IMG/VR virus record: IMGVR_UViG_3300029893_000055
Location: 1 to 27,999 of that record
Direction: 5' to 3' (one strand)
DNA length: 27,999 nucleotides
Origin: a virus
The first letter of the stretch is position 1; each line of letters opens with the position of its first letter. Below the pieces are notes generated by a model. It ran no database searches. It was not told where the DNA came from and saw nothing but the letters and a program-made list of their open reading frames with translations. Positions 12,936-27,999 of the stretch are shown piece after piece. A program made the translations under genes and the position numbers.

Positions 12936-13326
12936 GGACGTGAAGATGTTCCTGCCGGCCCTGCTGCGCGATCTGGCAGACGCGCTGGGACTGCCGGCGG
13001 CACTGCGGCTGGCATCCGAGTTCGGCGGCGACAAGCTTTACCTGCCGGCCGAAGCCGATCCGGAGCATCAGATCGCCAAGCGCTGCGGCATTGACGTGCT
13101 GCGCTGGCTGCTCGACACCTACCGGGGTGGGGAAGCCGTCCTGGTCCCGCTCGGCCCTCTGTCGCCGTATAACAAGCGCATCGCCTATATCCGCAATGCG
13201 TTGATCGCCGGCGAGAAAGGCTCCACTATCATTCGCGCCGCCGGCTGCCATGAACGGACGGTGCGTCGTCACCGCAAGACGTTGCGGGGGCGCCAGGGCG
13301 ACGACAAGCAAGGCAAGCTGCTGTAG
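12928..13326 (+). CDS. mor: Mor-family transcription activator
   Basis: This 132-residue protein is close in length to Mu Mor (129). The N-terminal dimerisation domain includes LPALLRDLADALGLPAALRL (9-28) and FGGDKLYLP (32-40), the family's GGxxxYxP block. The C-terminal helix-turn-helix is STIIRAAGCHERTVRRHRKT (99-118). Mor-type activators bind dyad sites just upstream of weak promoters and recruit RNA polymerase. No second activator (Mu C) is seen in the window. The palindromic sequence that starts 23 bases after this gene, and its copy at 20974, are the obvious candidate targets. It overlaps gemA by 8 bases. Confidence 0.9.
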   Translation: MAEDVKMFLPALLRDLADALGLPAALRLASEFGGDKLYLPAEADPEHQIAKRCGIDVLRWLLDTYRGGEAVLVPLGPLSPYNKRIAYIRNALIAGEKGSTIIRAAGCHERTVRRHRKTLRGRQGDDKQGKLL

Positions 13327-13348
13327 TGCGCACTCGCCGCACCGACTG

Positions 13349-13369
13349 ACCGGACAGGTGTCCGGGTTA
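13349..13369. promoter_or_regulatory. Late operator 1: palindromic activator site
   Basis: The core CCGGACAGGTGTCCGG (13350-13365) is a perfect 7-2-7 palindrome. One flanking base on the left and four on the right are also shared with the second copy at 20974-20994. It lies 23 bases after mor and 62 bases before the endolysin start. In Mu, the Mor site is centred about 43 bases before the transcription start; that rule would place the start near 13401 here, with no good -10 or -35 match, as expected for an activator-dependent promoter. Binding by the Mor-like protein is inference. Confidence 0.7.
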
Positions 13370-13426
13370 GACGCCCCTACCTCTTCCGTCACAGTACCTC
13401 CGTCGCATACGCGCGGAGGTCGCACC

Positions 13427-14005
13427 GTGTCCAATCTCAACCAGCTCAGCAGCCCGCAGCCGCCGGCCACGGACATCGGCTGGCAGGCGGCGCTCGCCGT
13501 CGTCATGGAGCACGAGGGCGGCTTCGTCGACGACCCCAACGACCCCGGCGGCGCCACCAAGTACGGCGTCAGCCTGCGCGAACTGCGCCGTCTCGGTGAT
13601 CTGGACTTCGACCTGGACGGCGACGGCGACGTCGACGCCGACGATATCCGCGCCCTGACCCCCGACGCCGCGGCCGCCTTCTACCGCAAGCATTTCTGGG
13701 ACCGCCACGGCTACGGCCGGTTTCCGGATCTGTTCGTCGCCACCAAGGTCTTCGACCTGGCCGTCAACATGGGGCCGGGACAGGCGCACAAGTGCCTGCA
13801 GCGGGCCTGCCGCGCCGCCGGATCGCCGCTGATCGACGACGGCATTCTCGGCCCGAAGACCCATGCCGCCGTCGCGGCCCTGCACTTCAAGGGCCTGCTG
13901 CCCGCCATCCGCTCCGAGGCCGCCGGGTTCTACCGCGGCCTCGTTATCGCCAAGCCGGTTCGTGGCAAGTACCTCGCCGGCTGGCTCAACCGTGCCTACT
14001 CGTGA
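13427..14005 (+). CDS. Endolysin, GH108 muramidase with peptidoglycan-binding domain
   Basis: This 192-residue protein cuts peptidoglycan glycan strands at lysis. The GH108 signature is at residues 28-48 (EHEGG, then DDPNDPGGATKYGVS), with E30 the expected catalytic acid. Residues 62-73 (DLDGDGDVDADD) are a perfect EF-hand/dockerin-type calcium loop. The C-terminal part (about 100-192) fits PG_binding_3: FPDLFVATKVFDLAVNMGPG and WLNRAYS. No signal peptide is present, so export needs a holin, which the next gene may provide. The start is GTG 13427, with GGAGGT seven bases ahead. It is the first gene of late unit 1, as lys is in Mu. Confidence 0.92.
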   Translation: MSNLNQLSSPQPPATDIGWQAALAVVMEHEGGFVDDPNDPGGATKYGVSLRELRRLGDLDFDLDGDGDVDADDIRALTPDAAAAFYRKHFWDRHGYGRFPDLFVATKVFDLAVNMGPGQAHKCLQRACRAAGSPLIDDGILGPKTHAAVAALHFKGLLPAIRSEAAGFYRGLVIAKPVRGKYLAGWLNRAYS

Positions 14006-21081: not shown

Positions 21082-21333
21082 ATGCCGAACGAACCCGCCG
21101 CCGTCCAGCCCGACGCCATCGCCATCGCCAAGGCCCTGAAGGCCGCCGGCATCACCGTGCGCGTCCACAAGACGGATCGCGACGGCAATCCGGTGAAGGA
21201 CAAGGAGACCGGCCGCCAGATGGTGATCGAGCGCGCGGCCGCCGCCGCCGACGTCATCGCCGCCCGCGTGCTGGACGGCGGCAAGCTCCGCCTGGTGACG
21301 ATCGACGGCCGCAAGCACGAGGTCGCCGCGTGA
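21082..21333 (+). CDS. Hypothetical small protein heading the head unit (83 aa)
   Basis: I do not recognise it firmly. Residues 12-30 form a helix (AIAIAKALKAAGITVRVHKT). The second half is a beta/alpha stretch ending LRLVTIDGRKHEVAA. It starts at ATG 21082, with CCGGAGACG as ribosome site, and is the first gene after late operator 2. Its stop overlaps the protease-capsid start (GTGATG). A head-related accessory role is inferred from position. Confidence 0.75.
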   Translation: MPNEPAAVQPDAIAIAKALKAAGITVRVHKTDRDGNPVKDKETGRQMVIERAAAAADVIAARVLDGGKLRLVTIDGRKHEVAA

Positions 21334-23657
21334 TGGGCGATGCCATCGTCGATCTGCGCGAGGCCCAGGCCGGCGGCGCCGCGCTACCGGCCCTCGGCCT
21401 GATCGGCGAGACGGCGATCCGCGAGGCCTTCGCCGGCGACTTCATGCAGCTGGGCGACCTGCTGCGGGTGTCGCTGCGGCAGCTCCTGAAGCTGCAGGGC
21501 GATGCCGATCCCTACCCCTTCATTCGCGCCGTCTTCGCCGACAGCATCGTCGTCGAGCGGGACGGCGGTTTCTGGCGCTACCCCTACACGGTCGACGGCA
21601 CCGCCGTGACCTTCGGCGCCGCCGAGCGGGTCATCCAGAGCTACGAGGCGCCGGGTGCGGCCGCCGCGGTCATGGAAGCCGCCGGCGCCTTCCTCGAGGC
21701 GAAGTCCGAGGGCAAGGGCGCGACGGCGTTCCGGGTGCGGATCATCCGCGCCGGCCTGTCCGGCAACGGCAACTACTATCCCGACGCGGTGCTGCGCGAG
21801 GCGGCGCCGTTGTTCGAGAACGCCAGGGTCTTCGTCAAGTCGGACGAGGAGCACCTGGCCGGCAAGGGCAAGGACGTGCGCAACCTGGTCGGCCGGCTGG
21901 CCAATGTCGGCTTCGTCGAAGGCCAGGGCACGGATACCGGCGAGCTGCAGGGCGAGCTGCAGATGCTGCAGCCGGCCGGCGACGTCGCCGTCAAGCTGCG
22001 CGAGGCCTGGGACCGCGGCATGGCCGGGCTGTTCGGGTTCTCGATCGACGCCAAGGCGCAGGCGCGCCGGCTGACCGTCGGCGGCCGCAGCGTCCAGCGC
22101 GCCAGCAAGTTCGTCAAGGTGAACTCCGTCGACCTGATCGTCGAGCCCGGCGCCGGCGGCGAGGTCATCGACTGCATCGAGGCCGCCCACGGCGGCGAAG
22201 AGGGAAAGAAGCTCATGGATCGTGAACAGATCATCAGCCTGCTCGAAGCGCAGCGCCCCGACCTGCTGGCCGGCAAGGATGTCCATGCCATTTCCGACGG
22301 CGACCTGCAGGCGCTGCTGCGCGAGGCCGTCGTCAAGCCGGCCGCCCCGAAGGAGCTACCGGACAGCACCAGCGCCGACCCCGCCGCCGACGCGGTGCGC
22401 GTTGTCGAGGCTCGCTTCGCCGCCCGCGACGCCGTCGCCGGTTCCGGCCTGCCGCCGGCCGCCCAGACCCGCGTGCTGCGGCTGATCGAGGCCGCCGGCG
22501 ACTACGGCCCGGCCGCCGTCGGCGCCGCGATCAAGGGCGAGAAGGAGTACCTGGCCAGCTTCACCGAGTCCGGCGCCGTGCGCGGTCTGGGCATGCGGAT
22601 CGAGCCCGGCGAGAGCCGCGATCAGAAGGTGGCGCAGATGCTGGAGGCCTTCTTCGATCCGAGCCACAAGGATCACGGCCAGGCACGCAGCTTCAAGGAG
22701 TGCTACGTCCAGATCACCGGCGACCGCCTGGTCACCGGCCTGCGCCGGCACTGCGACGAGGCGCTGATGCGCGAGGCTCTGGGCACCGCCGAGCTGTCGG
22801 ACGTGCTGGGCAACGCCATCCACCGCCGGATGATCGCCGACTATCGCACCCCCGACGTCTACGGCGCCTGGCGCCAGGTCGTCACGGTCGGCAACGCCGT
22901 CGACTTCCGCAGCCACGAGCGGGCGCGCGTCGGCGGCTACGGCGACCTGCCGGCGGTGGCCGAGGGCGCCGACTACACGGCCCTGACCAGCCCGAGCGAC
23001 GAGAAGGTCTCGATGGCGGTCACCAAGCGCGGCGGGCTCGAGACCCTGACGCTGGAGGCGATCAAGAACGACGACGTCGGCATGATCCGCATGATCCCGC
23101 TGCGGCTGTCCCGTGCGGGCAAGCGGACCCTGGCGAAGTTCGTCTTCGACTTCATCCGCACCAACCCGGTGATCTACGACGGCACCAACCTGTTCACCGT
23201 CGGCCATGGCAACCTGGGATCGGCGGCGCTGGCGGCTGCGAGCTACGCGGCGGCGCGGCTTGCGATGATCAAGCAGACCGAGCTGGACGACCACGACACG
23301 GTCGGCGTCGGGCCGAAGTTCCTGCTGGTGCCGCCGGACCTCGAGGAGACCGGGGCCGACCTGTTCCGCCGCAACACCGAGCAGGACAAGACGTTCCTGC
23401 AGAGCCTGAGCCCGACCATCATCCCGGTGTGGTACTGGTCGGACGCCAACGACTGGGCGGCGATGGCCGATCCGCTCGACGTGCCGACCATCGAAATCGC
23501 CTTCCTGGACGGCAACGAGGAGCCCGAGCTGTTCGTCCAGGATGCGCCCAACGCCGGCTCGATGTTCGCGGCCGACAAGATGACCTGGAAGATCCGCCAC
23601 ATCTACGGCGGCGCGGTCACCGATTTTCGCGGCGCCTACAAGGCCGTGGTGGCCTGA
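21333..23657 (+). CDS. Fused prohead protease and major capsid protein
   Basis: The 774-residue product has three parts. Residues about 55-100 form a small beta domain (VFADSIVVERDGGFWRYPYT). Residues about 130-285 resemble phage prohead proteases: AGLSGNGNYYPDAVLREAAP, a candidate His (SDEEHL, about 174) and Ser (GLFGFSIDA, about 237). From about 295 a scaffold-like helical linker leads into an HK97-fold capsid (from about 400), with TVGNAVDFRSHERARVGGYG, KRGGLETLTLEAIKNDDVGM and a C-terminal RHIYGGAVTDFRGAYKAVVA. Fused protease-capsid genes are known in some siphophages. Start is ATG 21333; GTG 21330 is possible. An in-frame ATG at 22215 may make the capsid part alone. Confidence 0.88.
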   Translation: MGDAIVDLREAQAGGAALPALGLIGETAIREAFAGDFMQLGDLLRVSLRQLLKLQGDADPYPFIRAVFADSIVVERDGGFWRYPYTVDGTAVTFGAAERVIQSYEAPGAAAAVMEAAGAFLEAKSEGKGATAFRVRIIRAGLSGNGNYYPDAVLREAAPLFENARVFVKSDEEHLAGKGKDVRNLVGRLANVGFVEGQGTDTGELQGELQMLQPAGDVAVKLREAWDRGMAGLFGFSIDAKAQARRLTVGGRSVQRASKFVKVNSVDLIVEPGAGGEVIDCIEAAHGGEEGKKLMDREQIISLLEAQRPDLLAGKDVHAISDGDLQALLREAVVKPAAPKELPDSTSADPAADAVRVVEARFAARDAVAGSGLPPAAQTRVLRLIEAAGDYGPAAVGAAIKGEKEYLASFTESGAVRGLGMRIEPGESRDQKVAQMLEAFFDPSHKDHGQARSFKECYVQITGDRLVTGLRRHCDEALMREALGTAELSDVLGNAIHRRMIADYRTPDVYGAWRQVVTVGNAVDFRSHERARVGGYGDLPAVAEGADYTALTSPSDEKVSMAVTKRGGLETLTLEAIKNDDVGMIRMIPLRLSRAGKRTLAKFVFDFIRTNPVIYDGTNLFTVGHGNLGSAALAAASYAAARLAMIKQTELDDHDTVGVGPKFLLVPPDLEETGADLFRRNTEQDKTFLQSLSPTIIPVWYWSDANDWAAMADPLDVPTIEIAFLDGNEEPELFVQDAPNAGSMFAADKMTWKIRHIYGGAVTDFRGAYKAVVA
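22200..22217 (+). promoter_or_regulatory. Possible internal ribosome site and start inside the protease-capsid gene
   Basis: GAGGGAAAGAAG (22200-22211) precedes an in-frame ATG (22215-22217) that begins MDREQIISLLEAQRPDLLAG, a typical scaffold/capsid N-terminus, directly after the protease part ends. Initiation here would give a 480-residue product made of linker and capsid. Mu itself uses an internal start in its protease gene I to make scaffold Z, so the layout has a precedent. The spacing from GAGGG to ATG is somewhat long. Confidence 0.45.
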
Positions 23658-24347: not shown

Positions 24348-24847
24348 CCGAATTCGGCCTGGAGATCCTGGGCGCCGAGCGCGTCGAGCAGGCGCTGGCC
24401 GGGGCGGCGGAGATCGCCCGCGCCGAGCTGGAGCGCGCCGGCTGGGAAGCTTCGCTGCTGCTGCAGCGGGAAATCCAGGAACTGACGCCGTCCGGCATCG
24501 GCGGCGGCGGCGGCCTGAAGGGCTCGATCGCCGCGCAGGAGCCGGTTGTGCTGGGCGATTCGGTGATCGGCATCGTCGGCACCAGCCTGGCCTATGCCGT
24601 GCCGGTCGAGATGGGCACGAAGCCGCACATGCCGCCGATCGAACCGCTGCAGGACTGGGCCAAGCACAAGCTGGGCCTGTCCGAGGACGAGGCCAAGGGC
24701 GCCGCCCGCGCCATCGCCATGAAGATCAAGGCCCGCGGCACCGAGGGCGCGCACATGTTCGAGAAGGCGTTCGCGGCCAACCGCGGCCAGGTCGAGACCA
24801 TCTTCGAGCGCGCCGCCGCCCGCATCCCGGGAAGGATCGCCGAATGA
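24344..24847 (+). CDS. HK97 gp10-like tail completion protein
   Basis: This 167-residue protein starts with EFGLEILGAERVEQALAGAA (3-22), a long helix. It then has SLLLQREIQELTPSGIGGGG and the family hallmark YAVPVEMGTKPHMPPIEPLQ (about 84-103) followed by DWAKHKLGLS. HK97 gp10-like proteins join the finished tail to the head neck. The start is GTG 24344, overlapping the previous stop (GTGA), with CAGGGGG ahead. It ends in an ATGA overlap with the tail terminator gene. Confidence 0.87.
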   Translation: MTEFGLEILGAERVEQALAGAAEIARAELERAGWEASLLLQREIQELTPSGIGGGGGLKGSIAAQEPVVLGDSVIGIVGTSLAYAVPVEMGTKPHMPPIEPLQDWAKHKLGLSEDEAKGAARAIAMKIKARGTEGAHMFEKAFAANRGQVETIFERAAARIPGRIAE

Positions 24848-25296
24848 GCGATCTGGCCACCATCCGCGCTGCGATCGTCGCCAAGCTGCAGGGCGTTCCG
24901 GGCATCGGCCTGGTGCACGATTACGAGCGCTTCGCCAAGAGCAACAGCGACTTCCAGACCCTGTACACGACCGCCGGCGCCCTGCTGGGCTGGCACGTCC
25001 GGCGGGTGCGGACGGTCGAGCGCGAGCGCGGCATCGGCACCTACACCACCGACCATCTGTGGCGCATCGCCGGCTTCATGGCGCTGGTCGACGGTGCCGC
25101 CAGCGAGAAGGCCTTCGACGACCTGGTCGAAGCGATCCGCACAGCCTTCCGCGCCGACGACGAGCTGGGCGGCGTGGTCGGCACCTGCATCCACGAGGAG
25201 TTCGCCGGGATCCGGCTGGACGACAGCGGCCCGGTGATGTTCGCCGGCGTGCTGTGCCACGGCGCCCGCATGAGCCTGTTGACCCGCGTCTACTAA
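24844..25296 (+). CDS. Tail terminator-like protein (150 aa)
   Basis: Position after the gp10-like gene and before the tail tube, plus size, fit a tail terminator (lambda U type). The sequence begins SDLATIRAAIVAKLQGVPGI, has a beta core (YTTDHLWRIAGFMALVDGAA), a helix KAFDDLVEAIRTAFRADDEL and ends in a strand FAGVLCHGARMSLLTRVY. That alpha/beta order matches terminator folds. I am fairly sure of the role, less of the exact family. Confidence 0.75.
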   Translation: MSDLATIRAAIVAKLQGVPGIGLVHDYERFAKSNSDFQTLYTTAGALLGWHVRRVRTVERERGIGTYTTDHLWRIAGFMALVDGAASEKAFDDLVEAIRTAFRADDELGGVVGTCIHEEFAGIRLDDSGPVMFAGVLCHGARMSLLTRVY

Positions 25297-25308
25297 GGGA
25301 GAGCGCGC

Positions 25309-25497
25309 ATGAACCCGAGGCAGGGCGGCAGCTACGCCGCCGACAAGCCCGGCGCCAAGCCGAAGCTGCAGCACCGCACCAACCAGCCCGTCAAGGGCAA
25401 CGCGCCGCGCGCCGCCGACGGCCGCCGGCTCGACCGTCCGGACCAGACGGCGCCCGAGGAAAGCCCCAAGCCGGCGGCGAAGAAGGAGAAGGAATAG
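25309..25497 (+). CDS. Small disordered basic protein (62 aa)
   Basis: It is low in hydrophobic residues and rich in Lys, Arg, Pro and Gly (MNPRQGGSYAADKPGAKPKL at the start, KPAAKKEKE at the end), so probably disordered. It has a GGGAGAG ribosome site and lies 12 bases after the terminator gene and 3 bases before the tail tube. Small proteins like this are common between terminator and tube genes in related phages; function unknown. Confidence 0.68.
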   Translation: MNPRQGGSYAADKPGAKPKLQHRTNQPVKGNAPRAADGRRLDRPDQTAPEESPKPAAKKEKE

Positions 25498-25500
25498 GCC

Positions 25501-26436
25501 ATGGCCCGCAAGCTGAAATGGCGCAAGAAGGTCATCGTCGCCAAGGTCGAGACGACCTACGGCGTCGACGCCACCCCGACCGGCGCCGCCAACGCCATCC
25601 AGATCTCGGACGCCACCATCACGCCAATGGAATACCAGGGCGTCAGCCGCGGCTTGGTGCGCCCGACCATGGGCTCGGAAGGCGAGCTGCCGGTCGGCCT
25701 GCACGTGGTGATCGACTTCGCCACCGAGATCGCCGGCAGCGGCGCCGCCGGCACGGTGCCGAAGTGGGGCGCTCTGATGCGCGGCGCCGGCATGTCGGAG
25801 ACCATCTCGGCCGGCGTCGACGTGACGTATCAGCCGGTCTCGGAGAACCACGAGAGCCTGTCGATCTACTTCAATCAGGACGGCACGCTGCACAAGCTGC
25901 TGGGGGCGCGGGGCAACTGCACCATCGAATTCGACAGCCAGGGCGTGCCGCGCTACCGCTGGCGCTTCGTCGGGCTGTGGGCCGACCCGGCCGCGGTGGC
26001 GCTGCCGGCCGCCGACTTCACCGGCTGGCAGGTCCCGAAGGCGGTGTCGAACGCCAACACGCCCGACTGCCTGCTGCACGCCTACGCCGCGGTGGCCAAG
26101 AAGCTGTCGATCGACCTGGGCAACCGCGTCGAGCACCGCGACCTGGTCAACGACGAGTCGGTCGAGATCAGCGACCGGCAGGGCAAGGGCAGCATCTCGA
26201 TCGAGGCGCCGCCGGTCGACACCCAGGACTTCTTCGCGATCGTCAAGGCCGCCACCGCCGGCGCCCTGCAGTGGGTGCACGGCACCGCCGCCGGGCACAT
26301 CGTGCAGATCGACGCGCCGGCGGTGCAGCTCGCGCGGCCGAAGTACTCCGAGGACCGCGGCGTCACGATGCTGGACATGGACCTGATCCTGCAGCCCAGC
26401 GCCGGCGACGACGAACTGGTCATCACCGCGAAGTAA
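25501..26436 (+). CDS. Major tail tube protein (siphovirus type)
   Basis: This 311-residue protein resembles the Phage_tube_2 family: VAKVETTYGVDATPTGAANA (13-32), MEYQGVSRGLVRPTMGSEGE, a beta strand VVIDFATEIAGSGAAGTVPK, then WGALMRGAGMSETISAGVDV, SLSIYFNQDGTLHKLLGARG and a later LSIDLGNRVEHRDLV. It forms the non-contractile tail tube. No sheath gene follows, so the virion should have a long flexible tail, unlike Mu. ATG 25501 is used, three bases after the preceding stop. Confidence 0.9.
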   Translation: MARKLKWRKKVIVAKVETTYGVDATPTGAANAIQISDATITPMEYQGVSRGLVRPTMGSEGELPVGLHVVIDFATEIAGSGAAGTVPKWGALMRGAGMSETISAGVDVTYQPVSENHESLSIYFNQDGTLHKLLGARGNCTIEFDSQGVPRYRWRFVGLWADPAAVALPAADFTGWQVPKAVSNANTPDCLLHAYAAVAKKLSIDLGNRVEHRDLVNDESVEISDRQGKGSISIEAPPVDTQDFFAIVKAATAGALQWVHGTAAGHIVQIDAPAVQLARPKYSEDRGVTMLDMDLILQPSAGDDELVITAK

Positions 26437-26451
26437 GGAGGGGGCATTCCG

Positions 26452-26802
26452 ATGAAGTTCTCGATCACCGGCAAGCACACCGTCGAGTGGCCGGTCACCG
26501 CCTATGTGCCGCTGGACGGCGGCAAGAAGGGCATCCTCAAGTTCCAGGGCACGTTCGAGATCCTGCCCCAGGAGGAGCTGGACGCGATCCCGGTCGGCGA
26601 CGAGTCGCCGGATCCCAAGCCCTATGACCTGCGGGTGCTCGACCGGGTGCTGCAAGGCTGGCGCGATCTGCCGGGCGAGGACGGCGCGCACGTGCCGTAC
26701 TCGGAGGAGAACAAGGCGGCGGTGCTGCGCTGGCCCTTCATGCGTCTCGGCCTTATGGACGCGTACAAGACGGCCGTGTCGGGGCGTAAGGAAAAAAACT
26801 GA
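26452..26802 (+). CDS. Tail assembly chaperone (lambda G-like)
   Basis: This 116-residue protein lies between the tail tube and tape measure genes, the invariable place of the tail chaperone. It has a beta-rich start (KFSITGKHTVEWPVTAYVPL) and an acidic middle (QEELDAIPVGDESPDPKPYD), then a helical end with WPFMRLGLMDAYKTAVSGRK. It ends KEKN, encoded over the slippery heptamer A AAA AAC just before TGA, so a fraction of ribosomes should shift -1 into the DUF1799 frame and make a 244-residue G-T type product. ATG 26452 follows AAGGAGGGGG. Confidence 0.88.
   Translation: MKFSITGKHTVEWPVTAYVPLDGGKKGILKFQGTFEILPQEELDAIPVGDESPDPKPYDLRVLDRVLQGWRDLPGEDGAHVPYSEENKAAVLRWPFMRLGLMDAYKTAVSGRKEKN
26793..26799 (+). 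promoter_or_regulatory. Programmed -1 frameshift site A AAA AAC
   Basis: In the chaperone frame the codons are GAA AAA AAC TGA, so the canonical heptamer A AAA AAC (26793-26799) lies directly before the stop. After a -1 slip the next codons CTG ACG GCC GCG continue open to TGA 27183-27185. A very GC-rich stretch directly downstream (about 26803-26870) could form a stimulating hairpin. Frameshifting at this exact gene junction is conserved in siphophages. Confidence 0.85.
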
Positions 26803-27185
26803 CGGCCGCGGCGCGGGCGTGGGCGCTGGGGCCGCAGGCCCTGGGCCGCGCCGGCGCCGCGGGATTGTCGGCCGCAGAGCTGGAAGACCTGACGGTCTTC
26901 GGCATGGCCGAGGAGGAGCTGGAGCGGCTGCGCCGCGAGTCCGAGCCGGATCCTGGCGACGTCTTCGAGGTGCACGACGACTGCTGGCCCAGCTTCGAGG
27001 TGTTCCTGGCCGCCGACACGCAATGGCGGGTCGGGCCGGGCGGGCCGGTCGGCCTGGACTACCAGGGCGTGCTGGCGGCGATGCGGTTCCTGGGCCGGCG
27101 GCCGACCAAGGAGCTGCTGATGGACCTGAAGGCGATCGAGCACGCCGCCCTGGCGGCGATGCGCGAGCGGCAGGAGAACGAGTGA
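26799..27185 (+). CDS. DUF1799 frameshift partner of the tail chaperone (T-like)
   Basis: This frame has no good start of its own (first possible codon TTG 26865, no clear ribosome site) and is reached by a -1 shift from the chaperone. The recognisable DUF1799 part is HDDCWPSFEVFLAADTQWRV (about 26973-27032), GGPVGLDYQGVLAAMRFLGR and LLMDLKAIEHAALAAMRERQ. In siphophages the G-T fusion binds tube and tape measure proteins while G alone does not. The 128 codons after the slip join 116 before it. If a database calls this gene separately it will probably use 26865-27185. Confidence 0.85.
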   Translation: MTAAARAWALGPQALGRAGAAGLSAAELEDLTVFGMAEEELERLRRESEPDPGDVFEVHDDCWPSFEVFLAADTQWRVGPGGPVGLDYQGVLAAMRFLGRRPTKELLMDLKAIEHAALAAMRERQENE

Positions 27186-27189
27186 GGCC

Positions 27190-27999
27190 ATGAACGACCT
27201 GGCGCTGTCCATCCGCATCACCGGCGACGCCAAGGGCCTGCGGGCCGAGGTGGTCGGCGCCGAGGGCGTGCTGAAGGATCTCTCGGCGGCCGGCGGCAAG
27301 GCCGGAAAGGGCCTCGAGGAGATGGGCCGCGACGCCGACAAGGCGGGGCGCGAGATGCGCGAGTTGGGCCAGCAGAGCGAGGGCCTGGCCGCCTCCTTGC
27401 GCATCCTGCCCGGGCTGATCGCCGCCATCGGCCTCGGCGCCCTGGCCGGCAACCTGGTGGCCACGAACCGCGAGTTCCAGTCGCTGGCCGCCAGCCTCAA
27501 GACGGTGACCGGCTCGACCGAGGCCGCCAAAGCGGCGATGGCGGAGATCGAGAGGTTCGCGACGCAGACCCCGTACCAACTGCAAGAGGTGGTGCAGGCG
27601 TTCATCAAGCTGAAGGCGGCTGGACTTGATCCGTCGATGGAGGCATTGCGTTCCTACGGCAACACGGCCTCGTCAATGAGCAAGACGCTCGACGATTTCA
27701 TCGAGGCCATTAAGGACGCGACTCGGGGCGAGTTCGAACGGCTGAAGGAATTCACGGTCGACGCCTCGAAGCAAGGCGATCAGATCGCATTCACCTTTCA
27801 GGGCATCACCACCGTTGTCCGGAAGAACACGAAGGAGATCGAAGGCTATCTCCGAAGCCTGGGCGAAGCCAACTTTGCTGGGGCAATGGCTGCTCAGATG
27901 GAGACCATTGGAGGCAAGCTCTCGAACCTCGGCGACTCCATCTCGCAGTTCTATCGCGCAGTTGGCGACGCCGGCTTCAACACCGCCCTGACCGAGGTC
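27190..27999 (+). CDS. Tape measure protein, N-terminal part (runs off the window)
   Basis: The first 270 codons are present. The start is ATG 27190, with GTGAGG ahead. The opening (NDLALSIRITGDAKGLRAEV, then GAEGVLKDLSAAGGKAGKGL) and a helical coiled region lead to a hydrophobic stretch (ILPGLIAAIGLGALAGNLVA, about 74-93). This is followed by the tape measure N-domain SLAASLKTVTGSTEAAKAAM, FATQTPYQLQEVVQAFIKLK and ALRSYGNTASSMSKTLDDFI. It sets tail length and helps DNA entry. Base composition falls somewhat after about 27600 (more A/T, e.g. 27700-27960), suggesting a differently derived segment. Confidence 0.92.
   Translation, partial: MNDLALSIRITGDAKGLRAEVVGAEGVLKDLSAAGGKAGKGLEEMGRDADKAGREMRELGQQSEGLAASLRILPGLIAAIGLGALAGNLVATNREFQSLAASLKTVTGSTEAAKAAMAEIERFATQTPYQLQEVVQAFIKLKAAGLDPSMEALRSYGNTASSMSKTLDDFIEAIKDATRGEFERLKEFTVDASKQGDQIAFTFQGITTVVRKNTKEIEGYLRSLGEANFAGAMAAQMETIGGKLSNLGDSISQFYRAVGDAGFNTALTEV

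Follow-up and report, generated by a model that had tools for sequence, protein, structure and literature searches.

The locus described here lies in the virus record IMGVR_UViG_3300029893_000055, taken in full (27,999 bases, hereafter the window), and comprises a gene for a tail assembly chaperone and, in the -1 frame directly behind it, a sequence encoding a DUF1799 domain. The features are listed in Table 1. The chaperone gene ends GAA AAA AAC TGA (26791-26802), so that the slippery heptamer adjoins the stop codon, just as a preliminary description of this DNA had read it. The same description gave 26752 as the start of the feature, a position that matches no boundary. The -1 frame is bounded by TAA at 26787-26789 and TGA at 27183-27185, is open over 26790-27185, and shares only 13 bases with the chaperone frame (26790-26802). 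Since it opens only at 26790, any shift must fall within 26790-26799. Read from 26799, it matched PF08809 (DUF1799) with 57 bits against a cut-off of 26 (E 2.3e-15) and phrog_680 with E 1.2e-22, in agreement with the earlier statement that the frame is open to 27185 and encodes DUF1799. The predicted fusion of the two products has 116 + 128 = 244 residues. Besides the A7 run at 26792-26798, neither strand of the window holds another; such a run was found in 6 of 100 dinucleotide shuffles, and its uniqueness, taken alone, is only suggestive of a site that did not arise by chance.

Table 1. Features at the chaperone-DUF1799 locus of the window and its flanking genes
Feature	Position	Strand	Basis
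Tail tube (major tail) protein gene, upstream neighbour	25501..26436	+	PF18906 Phage_tube_2 E 1.8e-14; phrog_290
Tail assembly chaperone, 'G' product, 116 amino acids	26452..26802	+	phrog_569 E 1.7e-13; place between tail tube and tape measure
Slippery heptamer A_AAA_AAC, in phase for a -1 shift	26793..26799	+	direct reading; X_XXY_YYZ at the same place in 102/104 DUF1799 loci
Zero-frame stop TGA, adjoining the heptamer	26800..26802	+	direct reading
Predicted -1 extension with DUF1799, 'T' domain, 128 amino acids; base 26799 read twice	26799..27185	+	PF08809, phrog_680
Predicted RNA hairpin, 6 nucleotides after the heptamer, probable stimulator	26806..26862	+	-54 kcal/mol, z -4.01, 0/200 shuffles
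Tape measure protein gene, incomplete at record end	27190..27999	+	PF20155 TMP_3 E 2e-16; phrog_1716 E 5.2e-63

Conservation of the site was examined in 104 DUF1799 loci assembled from several searches. These were the window, 7 named phages reached via the chaperone, 40 and 38 virus contigs from two DUF1799 queries (one being the S-CBS1 DUF1799), 2 bacterial contigs from genome contigs, and 16 named phages hand-picked for diversity among the matches listed (60 of 142 DUF1799 records). The pattern sought left the bases of XXX free and required AAA or TTT after them, and the heptamer nearest to the stop was used if several were in phase. A phased X_XXY_YYZ heptamer was found at or near the chaperone stop in 102 of the 104 loci: A_AAA_AAC in 58, G_GGA_AAC in 42, A_AAA_AAT in one (L087) and G_GGA_AAA in one (phage MK21). 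It adjoined the stop in 84 of the 102 and was separated from it by one intervening codon in the remaining 18. Two pairs of duplicates are included in these counts (L002/L049, records of 30,332 bases with the S-CBS1 site, and L046/L088, contigs of 34,795 bases that share one site) and are corrected for by clustering. At 90, 70, 50 and 40% protein identity, the 102 loci formed 45, 36, 16 and 6 single-linkage clusters, respectively. As a control, open frames of at least 100 codons on the same strand of the same loci were used, non-gene frames included, and none of their 439 distinct ends had a heptamer 0 or 3 nucleotides before it. The 78 loci that came from DUF1799 queries were reached with sequences beginning 3' of the heptamer and were thus not selected for it. 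This conservation across DUF1799 loci indicates that the site is beyond chance.

The first three bases of the heptamer position were identical (AAA or GGG) in 102 of the 104 loci and mixed in two, as would be expected where both tRNAs have to re-pair. The two loci without a heptamer, Taid (L097; CAA AAG TAA) and Jk06 (L102; GCA AAG GTC TAA), kept an A_AAG tetramer, which possibly represents a different slip mode; both were excluded from the clustering, hairpin and coding tests. The slip site was therefore retained in one form or the other (heptamer in 102/104, A_AAG in 2/104), and no examined DUF1799 locus had traded it for a conserved start, so that the frameshift reading withstood the counter-test set in the preliminary description. 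The preliminary description had looked to relatives for conservation of the A-run. The position of the heptamer was conserved, but the A-run itself was not, as the 42 loci with G_GGA_AAC show. No relative with the chaperone and DUF1799 fused in frame was seen among the 104 loci. Querying virus contigs with the chaperone protein gave no relative, and a Rhodovulum DUF1799 query gave no loci, unlike the two productive DUF1799 queries.

We then considered where coding constraint on the DUF1799 frame begins. The 16 codons that follow the heptamer were compared within clusters of close relatives. Differences at the first, second and third base of the -1 codons numbered 74, 109 and 545 in a 28-member cluster, 19, 22 and 115 in a 12-member cluster, and 0, 15 and 29 in an 8-member cluster; a 16-member cluster showed a weaker bias (21, 16 and 34). 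The counts are from sequence pairs, which are not independent. Because the constrained codons precede most candidate starts, they are most simply explained as being read by ribosomes coming from the chaperone frame. The DUF1799 frame had been said to have no start of its own. It does hold TTG at 26865 and ATG at 26904 in frame, but neither has a good ribosome site: the best anti-Shine-Dalgarno pairing among candidates in the first 60 codons was -2.5 kcal/mol, while the chaperone start scored -12.6 and the tape measure start -7.4.

The RNA downstream of the heptamer was folded from 26805 to 26864 and gave the hairpin in Table 1. The preliminary description had called this RNA very GC-rich, and the structure goes beyond what composition alone provides (z -4.0, 0/200 shuffles). 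Other cuts of the downstream RNA gave z -2.50 and -1.21, the stem being truncated in the latter. In 36 cluster representatives, 60 nucleotides taken after a 5-nucleotide spacer had a mean z of -1.61, and half were below -1.5; two control stretches had means of -0.34 (19% below -1.5) and -0.25 (8%). Among the named relatives, those closest to the window had clear hairpins, as did several virus contigs; most of the enterobacterial siphophages sampled had weak ones or none. Their spacing and loops differed across lineages. The sequence AAGGA before the heptamer was also considered as an upstream stimulator like that of dnaX and was dropped, as it touches the heptamer and relatives do not share it.

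The conserved heptamer, together with the coding constraint that sets in at it, supports the earlier suggestion that a -1 frameshift would join the chaperone to DUF1799. We consider it very likely that the locus encodes a frameshifted tail assembly chaperone pair of the G/GT type in a Mu-like phage. Most ribosomes would read the chaperone to the TGA at 26800 and release the 116-residue protein. A minority would slip one base back on A_AAA_AAC, probably slowed by the hairpin, and continue to 27182 to yield the chaperone-DUF1799 fusion. By analogy with lambda gpG/gpGT, the two products may coat the tape measure protein and bring the tail tube to it. The frames, heptamer, stop, hairpin potential, conservation and constraint can all be read directly from the DNA, and it is from them that we infer the shift itself.

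DUF1799 might instead be a gene of its own, reached by reinitiation at CTG 26799, TTG 26865 or ATG 26904. The CTG shares two bases with the stop (CTGA), AAGGA (26788-26792) lies 6 nucleotides upstream of it, annotated DUF1799 starts in relatives lie about 60 nucleotides past the chaperone stop, and Shine-Dalgarno scores across the family are compatible with internal starts. However, relatives that end the chaperone with TAA or TAG, or have its stop one codon further on, show CTA, CTC or CTT as the first -1 codon, which encodes leucine and is no start; a CUG start is thus excluded as a general rule. The downstream starts fare no better, since coding constraint begins before them and the position of the first ATG is variable: it lies at 150 nucleotides in 45 of the 102 loci and varies elsewhere. 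Nor would reinitiation need the first three bases of the heptamer to be identical. We therefore regard a separate gene as very unlikely. A fusion made from altered mRNA, by slippage of RNA polymerase on the A7 run, is conceivable in principle at a run of seven. Yet in the 42 loci with G_GGA_AAC the runs at the site do not exceed three bases and the X_XXY_YYZ phase is maintained throughout, so transcript slippage cannot account for the common architecture, and we judge it highly improbable. Homopolymers are prone to error and the sequence comes from IMG/VR, so a single gene might also have been split by faulty sequencing or by a frameshift mutation, as an assembly artefact or in a decaying prophage. 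The identical split in independently sequenced named phages such as RcapMu, S-CBS1, vB_PeaS-P1 and Vibrio phage ZX4290, with both frames conserved, reduces the probability of such an origin to almost nothing.

Four observations weigh against the frameshift as proposed. Family-wide Shine-Dalgarno scores failed to separate DUF1799 candidates from real starts: pairing of -4 kcal/mol or lower occurred in 64% of DUF1799 frames (n = 102), 68% of chaperones (n = 99) and 86% of tape measures (n = 100), a comparison that does not discriminate, since each DUF1799 frame was represented by its highest-scoring candidate out of many. The predicted hairpin is no general feature, as z -1.5 was not reached in half of the 36 representatives. 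Lambda G and T had no detectable similarity to the proteins of the window (hhalign probabilities 0.1% for G and 0.4% for T, from single sequences and thus a weak test). Finally, A_AAA_AAC is weak for Escherichia coli ribosomes, and the level of shifting in the phage's host could be low.

This last point bears on the description of the site as unusually simple and strong. It is not unusual, as A_AAA_AAC is common to 58 of the 102 loci. Its strength is doubtful, as the accessible text of two reports (PMC5009743; PMC4066793) describes A_AAA_AAC as shifting poorly in E. coli and far less readily than A_AAA_AAG. A low rate would nevertheless suit the function, given the 30:1 molar ratio of the two products in lambda, as stated in the accessible part of PMC5009743. 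In an HK97-like tail chaperone cluster, reporter shifting of 6 and 7% is given for two genes in the available text of PMC3711429. The shift rate here would probably be a few per cent or less.

The stop codon could itself be part of the signal, with slow termination at a stop in the A site driving or tuning the shift. This idea arises because a C-ending heptamer that is weak in E. coli is kept either directly against the stop or one codon from it, whichever stop is used. We consider it unlikely. If it were true, the chaperone-to-fusion ratio would follow release-factor supply. The strict placement of C-ending heptamers against the stop in many lineages offers a natural set for studying what bacterial ribosomes make of slip sites at which E. 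coli shifts poorly.

The site is an ordinary one of a kind already known from the records of RcapMu and Smarc2 and from KL1, Loki, Mu and PaMx73. Genes 49/50 of Rhodobacter phage RcapMu (JN190960) are the same in being Mu-like, with DUF1799 in the -1 frame and a heptamer adjoining TGA. The RcapMu chaperone is about 31% identical to that of the window, and its heptamer is G_GGA_AAC rather than A_AAA_AAC. Its GenBank record notes a 'potential -1 frameshift' at the same place and calls the following gene DUF1799-containing. In Serratia phage Smarc2 (MT980831), the chaperone and DUF1799 are annotated as one joined coding sequence, a 'pre-tape measure frameshift protein'; the site, GTA AAA AAC TGA, is similar, whereas the chaperone, unlike that of the window, directly matches Phage_TAC_4. 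Going by published descriptions in the accessible text only, Burkholderia phage KL1 gp18/gp19 (PMC3483164) and Acinetobacter phage Loki gp12/gp13 (PMC5313236) also have heptamers adjoining the stop; they differ in an extra gene ahead of the tape measure, and the reports are not on transposable phages. The available text of PMC4378225 predicts or cites tail-gene frameshifts for transposable phages, namely PaMx73, Pseudomonas Mu-like phages of the D3112 group, and Mu. PaMx73 differs in having T_TTT_TTC 43 codons before the stop and Mu in using a -2 shift. In KS10, a tail-gene frameshift was looked for in vain, according to the accessible part of PMC2628397.

The preliminary description had likened the locus to the lambda G/GT strategy. 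Lambda gpG/gpGT likewise consists of a chaperone and its -1 fusion just ahead of the tape measure, with G_GGA_AAG in the same phase, and its function is described in the accessible text of PMC5009743. The likeness thus stands for place, frames and slip site, on which the proposed lambda-like working rests, but not for homology, which comparison with single lambda sequences did not detect. The lambda heptamer lies 15 nucleotides upstream of the G stop, and the mean slip-site-to-stop distance in actinophage training data is 26 nucleotides in the available text of PMC10885494. An adjoining stop is therefore a trait of the DUF1799 group, and the case is otherwise routine. In the literature searched, as far as its accessible text goes, DUF1799 is mentioned in one paper, without frameshifting. 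A family-wide rule that DUF1799 is preceded by a C-ending heptamer set against the stop was unstated in that literature, which mostly excluded subscription papers, Xu et al. 2004 among them.

The identity of the two proteins was examined through profiles and structure models. The 116-residue chaperone matched no Pfam family at E 0.1 and so stayed below the curated cut-off of Phage_TAC_4 (PF08748). A family alignment of the window chaperone nevertheless matched clear Phage_TAC_4 relatives with an hhalign probability of 98.7% (E 1.7e-16), and the chaperone alone matched the profile of the same relatives with 84% (E 7.5e-6). The members of this relatives' set that were compared with Pfam (L009, L029, L041, L043 and L087) match PF08748 directly. 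When the upstream proteins of relatives were extracted, 6 of the 102 loci were dropped for want of a start within range. Nine of the first ten compared with Pfam matched Phage_TAC_4 at E 0.1 or lower, eight above the curated cut-off and L049 just under it, and L004 did not match it. The next eight all matched, L103 below the cut-off. The structure models had predicted local distance difference test (pLDDT) values of 76 for the chaperone and 90 for DUF1799, and the best fold matches in the PDB had E values not below 1.2 and 0.57, respectively. Sequence searches of the PDB with these proteins gave nothing meaningful.

Both phrog_569 and phrog_680 carry the PHROGs label 'tail length tape measure protein', which is shared by several public records. 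The name is misleading, as these families are the chaperone and its frameshift extension. DUF1799 in this setting should be annotated as the C-terminal half of a tail chaperone, encoded through a frameshift, and not as a free gene or a tape measure. In Synechococcus phage S-LBS1 (L007), the chaperone at 1501-1881 carries the label of an ABC-transporter ATPase component (FepC), which is apparently wrong.

The window also encodes a Mu-type transposase (DDE_2 E 2.8e-33, with Mu DNA-binding and C-terminal domains), a MuB C-terminal domain, GemA, a Mu F-like protein and Mu Gp27. On the strength of these genes, the earlier label of a transposable phage is right. The tail genes run in the order tail tube, chaperone, DUF1799 frame and tape measure, with PF18906 upstream and TMP_3 downstream. 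In the 775-residue frame at 21330-23657, the major capsid domain PF25209 is confined to residues 479-772. The roughly 480 residues ahead of it are without a Pfam match and may be a protease or scaffold fused to the capsid protein. A lysozyme gene at 13250-14005 (Glyco_hydro_108 and a peptidoglycan-binding domain) lies upstream of a DksA/TraR zinc-finger gene and the packaging genes, which places a lysis gene before the head genes. On the minus strand, a 997-codon open frame runs antisense to the tail genes (24592-27585) and is probably a by-product of the G+C content of about 71%.
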